Assembly (NCBI GenBank): GCA_018648585.1
Contig: JABGQW010000010.1
Location: forward strand, 1-35,298
Direction: 5' to 3'
Source: a bacterium
GTDB lineage: Bacteria; Patescibacteriota; Gracilibacteria; UBA4473
DNA length: 35,298 nt
Below are positions 13,724 through 31,508 of the stretch, one piece after another. Both the position numbers and the translations under genes were made by a program. A model generated the notes under the pieces. That model was not told where the DNA came from. It made no database searches and was given only the letters and a program-made list of their open reading frames with translations. Each line of letters opens with the position of its first letter. Positions within the stretch are counted from its first letter, which is position 1.

Positions 13724-14728
13724 TCACATCATCGCGGCGAGTTCGACAAATCGGCAGGAGTAGCCCCACTCGTTGTCGTACCACGCGAGAACTTTTACCA
13801 AATCGTCGATCACGAGCGTTTCGGCTGCGTCCACGATCGAGCTGCGCGCGTCGCCCTGAAAATCTTTTGAGACGAGCGGTCGCGTTTCAAATCCCAAAAT
13901 ATGCGGACTTTTTTCCGACGCTTTTTTTAGCGCAGCGTTCACTTCTTCCACCGTTGTTTTTTTCCCAACTTTCACGACGAGATCGACGAGCGAAACCGTT
14001 GGTGTCGGAACGCGAACGGCGAGCCCGGTGAGTTTTCCTTCCAAATCTGGGCAGACGATTCCGACGGCTTTTGCCGCTCCGGTGCTGGTCGGAATCATGC
14101 TGAGTCCGGCGGAACGCGCGCGGCGCAAATCTTTGTGTCCGACGTCCAAAACTTTTTGATCGTTTGTGTACGCGTGGATTGTCGTCATCAGCCCGGATTT
14201 TATTTCAAAATTTTCGTGCAAAACTTTCGCCACCGGCGCGAGACAATTCGTCGTGCAGCTGGCGTTCGAAACCAAAACATCCGTTTTCAAAAGTTCCGAA
14301 TCGTTGACGCCGAGTACGATCGTGCGAAATTTATCATCTTTTGCCGGCGCGGACAAAAGTACTTTTTTCGCGCCCTGGTCGAGGTGCGGCTGCGCTTTTT
14401 CTGCTGTTCGAAAAACGCCGGTGCACTCGAGCACGATGTCGATTTTCAAATTGCCCCACGGAAGATCCGTGATATTTCGTGTCGAAAAACTGTGAATTTT
14501 TGTTCCGTCCACGTCGAAAAAAGTTTCATCGCCAGCGCGAACGATCGCAACGTTTTTTTCAAAAATTCCGAAATTCGAATCGAACTGAAAAAGGTGCGCG
14601 GTGGTTTCGATCGGCGACGGATCGTTGATCGCGACGAGTTCGAGCTGGTCGGAATATTTCGTCAAAATGAGTCGTGCAGTGGCGCGCCCGATCCGCCCAA
14701 ATCCGTTGATGGCGATTCGTTTTTTCAT
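13724..14728 (-). CDS. gap: Glyceraldehyde-3-phosphate dehydrogenase
   Basis: This glycolytic enzyme oxidises glyceraldehyde-3-phosphate to 1,3-bisphosphoglycerate with NAD and phosphate. The 334-residue length is typical. The N-terminal Rossmann fold starts INGFGRIGRATARL. The catalytic cysteine is in SNASCTTNCLAPV, and the conserved general-base histidine lies in TTIHAYTNDQK. RRARSAGLSMIPTSTGAAKA forms the phosphate-binding and S-loop region, and the C-terminal WYDNEWGYSCR signature is intact. ATG 14728 is the natural start. It diverges from the thrS leader region; I see no convincing promoter in the 130 bases before it. Confidence 0.97.
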   Translation of the reverse strand: MKKRIAINGFGRIGRATARLILTKYSDQLELVAINDPSPIETTAHLFQFDSNFGIFEKNVAIVRAGDETFFDVDGTKIHSFSTRNITDLPWGNLKIDIVLECTGVFRTAEKAQPHLDQGAKKVLLSAPAKDDKFRTIVLGVNDSELLKTDVLVSNASCTTNCLAPVAKVLHENFEIKSGLMTTIHAYTNDQKVLDVGHKDLRRARSAGLSMIPTSTGAAKAVGIVCPDLEGKLTGLAVRVPTPTVSLVDLVVKVGKKTTVEEVNAALKKASEKSPHILGFETRPLVSKDFQGDARSSIVDAAETLVIDDLVKVLAWYDNEWGYSCRFVELAAMM

Positions 14729-14818
14729 GAGATTTTTTAATGTTAAAAATTGAAATGCAGAGAAAGTCTAATTTTTTTTCAAAATTTGGGAACTGAATTT
14801 CAGAGATTTTTGAAAAAT

Positions 14819-14847
14819 TTGCGTTTTCCTGTTTTTCTTCGTACACT
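14819..14847 (+). promoter_or_regulatory. Probable thrS leader promoter
   Basis: TTGCGT (14819-14824), a 17-base spacer and TACACT (14842-14847), nine bases before the leader-peptide ATG. The gap matches other short-leader genes here. The same -10, TACACT, serves pyrF. Confidence 0.5.
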
Positions 14848-14856
14848 TCGCTCGAA

Positions 14857-14901
14857 ATGTTTGCATTCCCTGCCATTTTCACAACAACGACAACCGGATA
14901 A
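14857..14901 (+). CDS. Threonine leader peptide of thrS (MFAFPAIFTTTTTG)
   Basis: A 14-residue frame, ATG at 14857 to TAA at 14899-14901, with five consecutive threonine codons at 14881-14895 (ACA ACA ACG ACA ACC). It lies directly upstream of a terminator/antiterminator and 85 bases before threonyl-tRNA synthetase. Five matching codons in a peptide this short, in front of the cognate synthetase gene, is the hallmark of ribosome-mediated attenuation: a ribosome starved of Thr-tRNA would pause here. It has no Shine-Dalgarno, but its ATG is close to the predicted transcript start, as in other genes of this window. Confidence 0.85.
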   Translation: MFAFPAIFTTTTTG

Positions 14902-14906
14902 TTTTT

Positions 14907-14953
14907 CGGAGGTTCTGATGTGAAAACGAACCTCCGCAACCGGAGGTTTTTTT
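14907..14953 (+). terminator. thrS transcription attenuator
   Basis: Three segments compete. Segment 1, CGGAGGTTC (14907-14915), pairs over nine bases with segment 2, GAACCTCCG (14928-14936). Segment 2 also pairs with segment 3, CGGAGGTT (14941-14948), across a CAAC loop, followed by T7 (14947-14953), a clean intrinsic terminator. Segment 1 begins five bases after the leader stop codon. A ribosome that finishes the leader would cover segment 1 and allow the terminator. One stalled on the early Thr codons would leave 1:2 free to form and let transcription reach thrS. Confidence 0.88.
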
Positions 14954-14986
14954 AAAACGTATTTCTTCAAATTTTTTTTCTCAAAA

Positions 14987-16723
14987 ATGTGCGACCAAAA
15001 TGACGATCTCGAGCTTCGACGAAAACACACCGCGAGCCACGTGATGACTGCTGCGGTAAAAATGCTGCGCTCCGAAATTCGGCTCGGTGTCGGGCCATGG
15101 ACGGACGAAGGATTTTATCAGGATTTCGATTTCGGCGATGATCCGTTGTCGGACAAAGATTTCAAATCGATCGAGAAAAAAATGCGCTGGATTTGCAACA
15201 AAAATTTCAAAATCGAGCGAAAAGAATTTTCCGAAAAAGAAGCGCGCGAAATCTGGAAAAATGATTCGTTCAAACAGGAGCTGGTCGACGGAATTGTCGA
15301 AAAAGGCGAACAAATTTCCGCGTACGATTTTGTTGATGAATCGGGGCGTATTTTTTATCGCGACATTTGTGCGGGACCGCATTTGGATTCGACGGGCGAA
15401 CTCAAAGTTTTCAAACTCACAAAACTTGCTGGCGCGTACTGGCGTGGCGACGAAAAAAATCCGCAGCTGACGCGAATTTACGGAGTGACTTTTTCCACGC
15501 CGGAGGGATTGGAAAATTACCAAAAAATGCTCGAAGAAGCGGCACGGCGCGATCATCGAAAATTGGGAAAAGAACTCGATTTATTTTCGTTCCAGGAGGA
15601 GGGGCCGGGATTTCCGTTTTGGCATCCAAAAGGAATGCGACTGGTGAATAATCTTGTAGATTTTTGGCGACACGAGCACATCGCTGCCGGGTACGATGAA
15701 GTGCGAACGCCGATCATGCTTCACGAAAAATTGTGGCATCAGTCCGGACACTGGGAAAATTACAAAGAAAATATGTATTTCACCGAAATTGACGAGCAGC
15801 CGTTCGCCGTCAAACCGATGAATTGTCCGGGCGGAATTTTGATCTACAAAAACTCGCTGCATTCGTACCGCGAGTTGCCGCTGCGCTGGGGAGAACTTGG
15901 GCTGGTGCACCGCCACGAAAAATCTGGCGTGCTGCACGGACTTTTCCGCGTGCGAATGTTTACGCAGGACGACGCGCACATTTTCTGCATGGAAAATCAA
16001 ATTGCGGACGAAGTGGAAAAAATGATCCGATTGTTTCAAAAATTTTACGACACGTTTGGATTCAAATATCGCGTCGAACTTTCCACGCGCCCAGAAAAAC
16101 GCGTCGGATCAGACGAAATGTGGGAATTGGCAGAATCGATTTTGGAAAAAGTCATCAAAAAATCCGGCATCGATTTCGAAATCAATCCGGGCGATGGCGC
16201 ATTTTACGGTCCAAAACTGGATTTTCACCTGCAAGATGCGATCGGTCGCAGCTGGCAGTGCGGGACGATTCAACTCGATTTCTCGCTCCCCGAGCGGTTT
16301 GACATGAATTTTATCGGCGAGGACGGAGAAAAACATCGCGTTGTGATGTTGCACCGTGCACTTTTTGGATCGCTCGAACGATTTCTTGGGATTTTACTCG
16401 AACACACCGCGGGCGCGCTTCCTGCGTGGGTTGCACCGGTTCAAGTTTCTCTGCTGCCGGTGGGCGCGGCGCACGTTGAATTTTCTGAAAAAATTAAAAA
16501 AGAATTGGAATCAGCGGGCGCGTTTGTTGAGTTGCTCGATCCGCGGGAAACGCTGGGAAAACGAATTCGTGAATCGCAAACACACAAAGTTCCGCTCGCA
16601 GTTGTGATCGGCGATGACGAAGTTTCTTCCGAAAAATTGACTGTTCGAAAATACGGTGAAAAATCCGATCAAAAAATGTCGGTTTCCGACCTTTTGAAAC
16701 TTTTGAAACCAGAAGCAATTTGA
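14987..16723 (+). CDS. thrS: Threonyl-tRNA synthetase (no TGS domain)
   Basis: It charges tRNA-Thr with threonine. The 578-residue product starts at the editing (SAD-like) domain: RKHTASHVM supplies the HxxxH metal motif and DICAGPHL the downstream Cys/His. The class II catalytic core follows, with motif 1 near MRLVNNLVDFWR, MNCPGG (zinc Cys), motif 2 RHEKSGVLHGLFRVRMFTQD, and motif 3 HRALFGSLERFLGILLEH. The anticodon-binding domain (VQVSLLPVG...) ends the protein. The usual N-terminal TGS domain (~60 residues) is missing, and ATG 14987 leaves no room for it after the terminator. Expression is probably set by the attenuator upstream. Confidence 0.97.
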   Translation: MCDQNDDLELRRKHTASHVMTAAVKMLRSEIRLGVGPWTDEGFYQDFDFGDDPLSDKDFKSIEKKMRWICNKNFKIERKEFSEKEAREIWKNDSFKQELVDGIVEKGEQISAYDFVDESGRIFYRDICAGPHLDSTGELKVFKLTKLAGAYWRGDEKNPQLTRIYGVTFSTPEGLENYQKMLEEAARRDHRKLGKELDLFSFQEEGPGFPFWHPKGMRLVNNLVDFWRHEHIAAGYDEVRTPIMLHEKLWHQSGHWENYKENMYFTEIDEQPFAVKPMNCPGGILIYKNSLHSYRELPLRWGELGLVHRHEKSGVLHGLFRVRMFTQDDAHIFCMENQIADEVEKMIRLFQKFYDTFGFKYRVELSTRPEKRVGSDEMWELAESILEKVIKKSGIDFEINPGDGAFYGPKLDFHLQDAIGRSWQCGTIQLDFSLPERFDMNFIGEDGEKHRVVMLHRALFGSLERFLGILLEHTAGALPAWVAPVQVSLLPVGAAHVEFSEKIKKELESAGAFVELLDPRETLGKRIRESQTHKVPLAVVIGDDEVSSEKLTVRKYGEKSDQKMSVSDLLKLLKPEAI

Positions 16724-30080: not shown

Positions 30081-31508
30081 ATGAAAAATCTTTACTCGGT
30101 TTCGGTCGCATCTCATCACAGATTTCTCTTTGCAGCCAAAGATGTGATCGGAGCGGATGTACAAAATAAACAGATTTCTGTTGAAAATAAGGCTTACAAT
30201 GATGTGGCAGTCTGGACGAAGGATGCAGCAAATAAGTTGGGAGACGATGTTTCTACGTATATTAAAAAGGAAAATCTTAAAAAAGACACAACGGTGCGAG
30301 AGGTTCAATCAGGAGATTCTGTGGGAGCAATTGCACTTGGATTCAAAAAAGAAGGATGGCTCGACGTCAAAAGTATTTACGGTGCAAAAGCAAAATATGC
30401 AGAAGGATTTGAACCTTCGCAAAAACAGATCGATAAATGGAATATCCCTGCCGATGCAGTGGCAAAAATGAAAGCAGGAGAACCATTTCCTCTTTCGTAT
30501 GCCAATTTCCTTTTTCCAGGACAAAATGTCTGGGTTGAGGGAACGGATACTGTTGTGATCGGAAAAGGAACGCCAGAAGAAAAGGGAGAAACACCAGAAG
30601 AAAAATTAAAAAGAGAGGAGGAAGAAAAAAAAGCAAAAGAAGAAAAAGAGCGAAAAGCTAAGGAAGAAGCAGACAAAAAAGCAGCAGAGGAAGAATTACA
30701 GAGATTGGAAGGCGAAGCAAAAAAAGCGAAAGAAGTCGCAGCTGCAGCGAAAGTCGAAGCAAAAAGATTACAAGCAGAAGCTGATGTGGCAACCGCGGCA
30801 GAAAAAGTGCAAAAACAAGCGGAAGCAGATGCAGCGAAAGCAGTCGCTGAGGCAACACAAAAGGCTGCAGATGAAGCCGAGGCCGCAAAAGAGGCTTGTA
30901 AAACGGAGGAGGAAGAAGAAAGACTTAAAAAAGACGCAGAGGAGCAACAAAGATTGAAAGACGAAGAAAAGAGACGCCTGGAAGATGAGAAGAAATGCGA
31001 AGAAGATGCGGAGAAAGAAGCAAAAAGAATTGAAAAAGAGGAAGAGGAAAGAAAAAAGAAAAAAGGAGGAATTAATTTGCCCAAAGGGAAGACAATCGGA
31101 AATGATACAATCGTGACTCCAATAGTTGTCCCAGATACAACGGTGACTCCGATTGTTGTCCCAGATACAACAGTGACTCCAATCGTTTTGCCCAAAGGGA
31201 AGACAATCGGAAATGATACAATCGTGACTCCAATTGTTGCCCCAGACACAACGGTAACTCCAATAGTTGTACCAGACACAACGGTGACTCCAATCGTTTT
31301 GCCGGGGGGGAAGACAATCGGAAATGATACAATCGTGACTCCGGTTGTTGTACCAGATACAACGGTGACTCCAATTGTTGTGCCAGATACAACGGTAACT
31401 CTGATTGATTTACCAGTAGGAAATACACTTAGCTCAGTGGACAAAAATGAAGACTTAATTGCGGACGCAGGAAACCAAAAAAGTTGGTGGAATCGCTTAG
31501 TTGGTTAA
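30081..31508 (+). CDS. LysM-like coiled-coil protein with tandem Pro/Thr/Val repeats
   Basis: The product is 475 residues. The N-terminus MKNLYSVSVASHHR is shared in pattern with the gene at 34820. Residues ~70-155 carry VREVQSGDSVGAIALGF and FLFPGQNVWV, which resemble the start and end of a LysM (peptidoglycan-binding) unit separated by a long insert. Residues ~165-325 are a long E/K/A coiled coil similar in composition to TolA. From residue 333 a 37-residue unit (LPKGKTIGNDTIVTPIVV plus two VPDTTVTPIV units) occurs three times with a partial fourth. The tail SWWNRLVG is short. A cell-surface spanning or stalk protein is a reasonable guess. There is no classical signal peptide. Confidence 0.78.
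   Translation: MKNLYSVSVASHHRFLFAAKDVIGADVQNKQISVENKAYNDVAVWTKDAANKLGDDVSTYIKKENLKKDTTVREVQSGDSVGAIALGFKKEGWLDVKSIYGAKAKYAEGFEPSQKQIDKWNIPADAVAKMKAGEPFPLSYANFLFPGQNVWVEGTDTVVIGKGTPEEKGETPEEKLKREEEEKKAKEEKERKAKEEADKKAAEEELQRLEGEAKKAKEVAAAAKVEAKRLQAEADVATAAEKVQKQAEADAAKAVAEATQKAADEAEAAKEACKTEEEEERLKKDAEEQQRLKDEEKRRLEDEKKCEEDAEKEAKRIEKEEEERKKKKGGINLPKGKTIGNDTIVTPIVVPDTTVTPIVVPDTTVTPIVLPKGKTIGNDTIVTPIVAPDTTVTPIVVPDTTVTPIVLPGGKTIGNDTIVTPVVVPDTTVTPIVVPDTTVTLIDLPVGNTLSSVDKNEDLIADAGNQKSWWNRLVG
31077..31409 (+). repeat. Three tandem 111-bp coding repeats
   Basis: Units start at 31077, 31188 and 31299 (each 111 bp, 37 codons), with a partial fourth at 31410. Each contains two 30-bp sub-repeats (coding VPDTTVTPIV). 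Sequence identity is high, with mostly third-position changes, so copy number may vary between strains. Confidence 0.85.

Follow-up and report, generated by a model that had tools for sequence, protein, structure and literature searches.

The window analysed here, i.e. the whole stretch of 35,298 nucleotides, carries on its forward strand a thrS gene (14987-16723) encoding a threonyl-tRNA synthetase (ThrS) of 578 aa. The Pfam scan detected the tRNA-synt_2b, HGTP_anticodon and tRNA_SAD domains in this protein, and no TGS domain. On the reverse strand, a divergent GAPDH gene (13724-14728; Pfam Gp_dh_N and Gp_dh_C) precedes it, and the same divergent neighbour was read from the sequence at five other loci (L003, L007, L008, L017 and L020). 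The element described below lies between these two genes, with no same-strand gene directly upstream. Its terminator can therefore act only on transcripts leading to thrS and, since it lies between the divergent gene and thrS, the expression of thrS must pass it. A previous interpretation made from the letters of the window (hereafter, the sequence-only reading) had called the host CPR-like, which is indirectly supported by a genome of 1.05 Mb (99.8% complete) from a class in which some families have recoded TGA; in the window, TGA serves as a stop codon. Elsewhere in the window, a 475-aa ORF (30081-31508) presents a lysine/glutamate-rich stretch followed by repeats of the type VVPDTTVTPIV-LPKGKTIGNDTIVTPI.

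Upstream of thrS, a short ORF on the forward strand (14857-14901; ATG at 14857, TAA at 14899-14901) encodes the peptide MFAFPAIFTTTTTG and is probably translated from a leaderless transcript, judging from the promoter-like motifs in front of it. Five of its 14 codons are consecutive Thr codons (ACA ACA ACG ACA ACC, 14881-14895, forward strand), so that the leader proposed in the sequence-only reading is exact to the base. The string TTTTT occurs only once, at 14881, in the six-frame translation of the window. As Thr represents 5.4% of the codons of the 15 window genes, a run of five at a given place has a probability of p = 4.6e-7. Such a run of cognate codons in a short leader ORF, expected of an attenuator, is also kept in relatives with changed sequence. 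The stop codon is separated from the first pairing segment by a gap of five bases (14902-14906), again as had been proposed.

A putative sigma-70-type promoter (14819-14847, forward strand) is found in front of this leader, with TTGCGT (14819-14824), a 17-nt spacer and TACACT (14842-14847), the latter ending 9 nt before the ATG. As a -35 hexamer, TTGCGT is weak. A simple promoter scan of the window returned no match at the leader because TTGCGT/TACACT scores under the consensus threshold of the scan. In the 28 leaders collected from the phylum (see below), TANNNT motifs peak 6-11 nt 5' of the leader start codon, with 24 matches summed over these distances and 0-2 at each of the others. In addition, many leaders show a TTGAC-like hexamer 15-18 nt upstream of TANNNT, and several use GTG as start codon; no Shine-Dalgarno is visible for the leader ORF of the window. 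Because the -10 box usually ends 6-11 nt before the start codon, transcription probably starts at or within a few bases of it, and the leader ORF would be leaderless; its earlier description as near-leaderless agrees with this arrangement. Overall, the region 14819-14953 looks like a threonine-starvation sensor of a known type.

Three segments of the forward strand follow the leader. Segment 1 (CGGAGGUUC, 14907-14915) forms the 5' arm of an antiterminator, segment 2 (GAACCUCCG, 14928-14936) is the arm common to antiterminator and terminator, and segment 3 (CGGAGGUUU) together with the U-tract of the intrinsic terminator covers 14941-14953. The antiterminator 1:2 (14907-14915 with 14928-14936) and the terminator 2:3 (14928-14936 with 14941-14949) each count 9 bp, with energies of -14.2 and -13.1 kcal/mol, respectively, and the terminator stem leads into seven T (14947-14953). 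The two structures are mutually exclusive through their common segment, which bears out the 1:2/2:3 set of the sequence-only reading. The joint pairing score of 45.9 was reached by none of 100 dinucleotide shuffles (mean 20.8), and the entire leader folds at -30.6 kcal/mol (z = -4.0). A simple terminator scan gave no match in the window element, though the 2:3 hairpin can be read from the sequence.

In the fold that precedes the synthesis of segment 2, the end of the leader pairs with segment 1 through CCGGA (14894-14898) and UUCGG (14905-14909), and a second helix joins GAC (14889-14891) to GUU (14912-14914). The resulting hairpin around the stop codon (14889-14914, forward strand) is predicted to be a protector or pause hairpin, and such a hairpin between leader and first segment is also predicted in most relatives. 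Four-segment layouts are those of classical attenuators. With its leader end added to 1:2:3, the element has this classical layout in the predicted folds; of the three-segment layout previously proposed, the 1:2:3 part stands and the count does not. Segment 1 also contains CGGAGG, followed after 5 nt by an ATG-TGA start-stop (14907-14923), a Shine-Dalgarno-like arrangement that is probably incidental. We dropped CGGAGG as a Shine-Dalgarno for the ATG-TGA at 14918, since this ATG is not kept in relatives, and also the frame from 14918 as an N-terminal extension of ThrS read with TGA as Gly, since TGA ends 4 of the 15 window genes.

We followed the two structures by prefix folding of the window RNA, assuming a ribosome that covers 15 nt counted from its A-site codon. 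Stalling at any of the five Thr codons leaves 8-9 bp of 1:2 in the fold, whereas a ribosome that has reached the stop codon leaves no pair of 1:2 and 9 bp of 2:3. In this folding model, a stalled ribosome thus frees the first arm of the antiterminator and a terminating ribosome covers it. The same switch was obtained in 21 of 23 modelled leaders (20 of 23 with a footprint of +13), a geometric agreement that is partly built in, since segments were sought only near the leader stop codon. When no ribosome is present, 17 of the 23 leaders fold at full length into the terminator. For stalls at Thr1-4, the minimum-energy fold of the full-length window leader is also the terminator, even with segment 1 free. 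Antitermination therefore needs 1:2 to form before segment 3 is transcribed, an order of events that equilibrium folding cannot prove.

The element would then work as follows. Transcription would begin at the leader AUG or slightly upstream of it, and ribosomes would load on this 5'-terminal AUG. When Thr-tRNA is ample, the ribosome would reach the stop codon and cover segment 1; segments 2 and 3 would pair and RNA polymerase would halt at 14947-14953. When Thr-tRNA is scarce, the ribosome would stall at a codon of the five-Thr run, masking the 5' arm of the leader:segment-1 hairpin and leaving segment 1 free. The antiterminator 1:2 could then form ahead of the synthesis of segment 3, and transcription would run into thrS. 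Without ribosome, the leader end would occupy segment 1 and termination would again be favoured.

The conservation of this element was assessed in thrS upstream regions from 109 genomes within the class and 87 from elsewhere in the phylum. Thr leaders were first chosen by eye or with a Thr-count threshold, and a uniform criterion was then added (at least five of one residue in eight codons, in an ORF of 6-45 codons within 300 nt). Thr-rich leaders were found in 27 of the 109 class regions, from eight families (f1, f2, f5, f6, f14, f15, f16 and f22), including the TGA-recoded family f14 (L187, L188 and L190). Among the 87 other regions, a single convincing Thr leader was detected (L308, MKSLIVITTNTTTL). 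Applied to the class regions, the uniform criterion retained 23 leaders for Thr, 5 for Leu and 2 for Arg; shuffled sequence gave 0.1 for Thr.

A 1:2:3 set follows 25 of these 28 leaders. Segment 1 reads CGGAGG in much of the window's own family f1, CGGCAG in L017, CUUGGAGA in L011, GGCUCUC in L027 and GAGGAAGG in L178, and segments 2 and 3 change in step with it, so that the pairing is rewired. In a control in which the U-tract was forced at the same place in 100 shuffles, three or fewer shuffles scored as high for 21 of the 25 triples; the weakest triples were those of L026 (18 shuffles), L057 (12), L015 (9) and L048 (5). A hairpin around the leader stop is predicted in most f1 members; the CCGA:UCGG pairing of others is replaced by CCGU:ACGG in L012. 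This pairing of the leader end with segment 1 would account for the frequent ACC-GAN-TAA or ACC-GGA-TAA endings of f1 leaders. The sequence-only reading had suggested looking in relatives for Thr runs together with covarying segments, and the outcome is clearly positive. It had also named as contrary evidence a terminator kept without any Thr-rich frame. Five of the 17 sampled f1 members lack a Thr leader, and four of these five also lack a terminator-like hairpin. The contrary pattern occurs only once in f1, in G019, with a leader of two Thr (MKNCATLTLIKKIA, then a stop codon) and a weak hairpin of -8.3 kcal/mol, apparently a decayed copy of the attenuator.

Other short frames were observed in these regions. 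Five f14 loci (L180, L185, L187, L188 and L190) show leader-like frames, some of them Thr-poor, with an N-terminal motif like M-x-L-A-x-L-(V/E)-T, and the peptide itself may be of importance in this family. Outside the class, the short frames upstream of thrS in L313 and L325 end in Thr codons within the 5' arm of a small hairpin (AACCCC-GTAA-GGGGTT; ACCCCTTCTAGGGGTT), an arrangement that could be a two-segment attenuator in which a stalled ribosome directly blocks the hairpin. A coarse check of other aminoacyl-tRNA synthetase genes in three genomes, with some gene starts taken from the longest frame, detected no comparable cognate leader; the residue runs found there look like coding sequence of neighbouring genes or chance.

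Taken with the anatomy of the element and the geometry of the folding model, the Thr leaders of relatives, the rewired triples and the predicted folding switch support the attenuator interpretation of the sequence-only reading. We infer that 14819-14953 very probably controls thrS as a ribosome-mediated transcription attenuator responsive to charged tRNA-Thr; its transcription start, its termination in the cell, the translation of its leader and its response to threonine would be as described above. The alternative that fares best, in which the leader senses threonine and controls the translation of thrS or the stability of its mRNA instead of intrinsic termination, is nevertheless improbable. 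Some leader peptides of Actinobacteria have no obvious terminator (PMC1262725; thrL of Streptomyces lividans, PMC8079986), and no triple was found in L020, L056 and L171 within the limits of the segment search. However, the window and 24 other loci possess a stem followed by a U-rich tract, with a left arm common with the antiterminator. Moreover, the structure of the window stops 37 nt before the thrS start, and no Shine-Dalgarno that it could hide was seen ahead of this start.

The usual controls of thrS are the T-box in Gram-positive bacteria and translational autorepression in Escherichia coli. In E. coli, the operator of thrS consists of tRNA-like hairpins beside the ribosome-binding site, and ThrRS keeps its N-terminal domains. 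Motifs of the T-box were found upstream of thrS in other members of the class and of the phylum, including 15 of the 109 class regions, while both a Thr leader and a T-box motif are missing from 66 of the 109. For ten of the examined candidates, Rfam T-box matches were obtained with E values from 3e-8 to 0.05, all below the curated threshold. The T-box type was observed in families f9, f11 and f23, and f2 has one of each (T-box in L005, Thr leader in L047). T-box-like leaders with GAGCTGGTACCGTCC also lie upstream of ileS in L193 (G000 C25) and L192 (G001 C1). The former is the ileS leader of the window genome (Rfam T-box, E = 0.066), so that this genome may sense Ile through a T-box and Thr through a leader peptide.

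These T-boxes lend some plausibility to a thrS placed under a T-box or under E. coli-type ThrRS autorepression with a tRNA-like operator, the leader being incidental, but this explanation is very unlikely. At gathering thresholds, Rfam gave no match in the window region or in L001, and none to its Threonine operon leader in the window or its relatives. No UGGNACC motif is readable in 14729-14986, and the RF00230 anatomy, a Stem I with specifier and a UGGNACC antiterminator bulge, was not recognised there. An E. coli-type operator is likewise opposed by the 37-nt gap, the lack of a visible Shine-Dalgarno at the thrS start and the TGS domain missing from the Pfam scan. Equally unlikely is a plain terminator behind a chance Thr-rich frame with no regulation, which the class regions devoid of both sensors might suggest, and which is already contradicted by conservation: Thr runs exceed the frequency in shuffles about 200-fold and are Thr-specific, they stand at a near-fixed distance from the -10 box and from segment 1, and the terminator would have no upstream same-strand gene to serve.

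A ThrS tree places the attenuator rows apart from the T-box rows. We set this tree aside as a history of the switch because the protein is mosaic within its own family. The N-terminal half tracks relatives (78% identity between the window and L003, of the same genus), while the catalytic core (residues ~213-488) shows at least five types among the window, L003, L007, L010, L012, L013 and L024. Core identities are 41% between the window and L003, 90% between L003 and L007 and 84% between L013 and L024; the closest matches to the core of the window are ThrS of L002 (70%) and ThrS from a Syntrophomonadaceae bacterium (68%). These sequences suggest that the catalytic core has been repeatedly replaced, perhaps, to speculate, under antibiotics targeting ThrRS.

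Compared with known systems, the thrS attenuator proposed here shares several features with the classical attenuators of Proteobacteria (trp, his, thr and pheST operons): a short ORF rich in cognate codons, an antiterminator and an intrinsic terminator with a common segment, a leader end that pairs with the first segment, and termination by default without ribosome. It differs from them by its target (thrS), its apparently leaderless leader, its host (Patescibacteria) and its compactness, with ~97 nt from the leader start to the end of the U-tract. Lopatovskaya and colleagues have reportedly made a comparative study of attenuation that is possibly relevant. T-box leaders of thrS (RF00230) have the same gene, signal (uncharged tRNA-Thr) and output, whereas the T-box RNA reads the tRNA directly, without a translated leader; the two sensors occur in different genomes, even inside one sampled family (f2).

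Cognate leaders in front of synthetase genes have been described in S. lividans (leuL2-leuS, trpL2-trpS, alaL-alaS and thrL-thrS), leaderless where stated (PMC8079986), and leuS and trpS attenuators were predicted in Streptomyces (PMC1262725). The leaderless thrL of S. lividans (MKRVRPFLETTPGFVPAR) also precedes thrS, with two Thr and a termination described as unclear (PMC8079986). The leaders reported here have no evident sequence similarity with it, mostly contain 4-9 Thr codons, are followed by a clear terminator/antiterminator, and come from eight families of another phylum. Attenuation of thrS, called unusual in the sequence-only reading, can still be considered so, although not as wholly unknown, given that one previous annotation. 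In Bacilli, a His leader peptide stands at hisS/hisZ in place of the T-box found in relatives (Naville and Gautheret 2010, PMC2965389). This is also a leader peptide at a synthetase gene with a T-box in relatives, for histidine in Firmicutes there and for threonine in Patescibacteria here.

The mechanism itself is therefore already known. A search of freely accessible literature found no earlier report of a leader peptide or a T-box at thrS in CPR, Peregrinibacteria or Patescibacteria. As far as we found, what is new is a complete switch at thrS, its wide occurrence in Patescibacteria and its exchange with T-boxes. It is conceivable, and proposed here only tentatively, that leaderless Thr-leader attenuators control thrS throughout this lineage and have repeatedly swapped places with T-boxes. 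If so, a 70S ribosome loading on the 5'-terminal AUG would be brought into step with the polymerase, and leaderless initiation would be a functional part of the switch. The attenuator is small and clearly bounded, and can therefore be tested in a laboratory host. The signal would be uncharged tRNA-Thr, acting on the very gene of the synthetase. Within the class, a natural comparison arises between lineages that equip the same gene with a leader peptide and those that equip it with a T-box, an unrelated RNA sensor. Amino-acid-sensing leader peptides would also be extended to Patescibacteria, a group with poorly known gene regulation.
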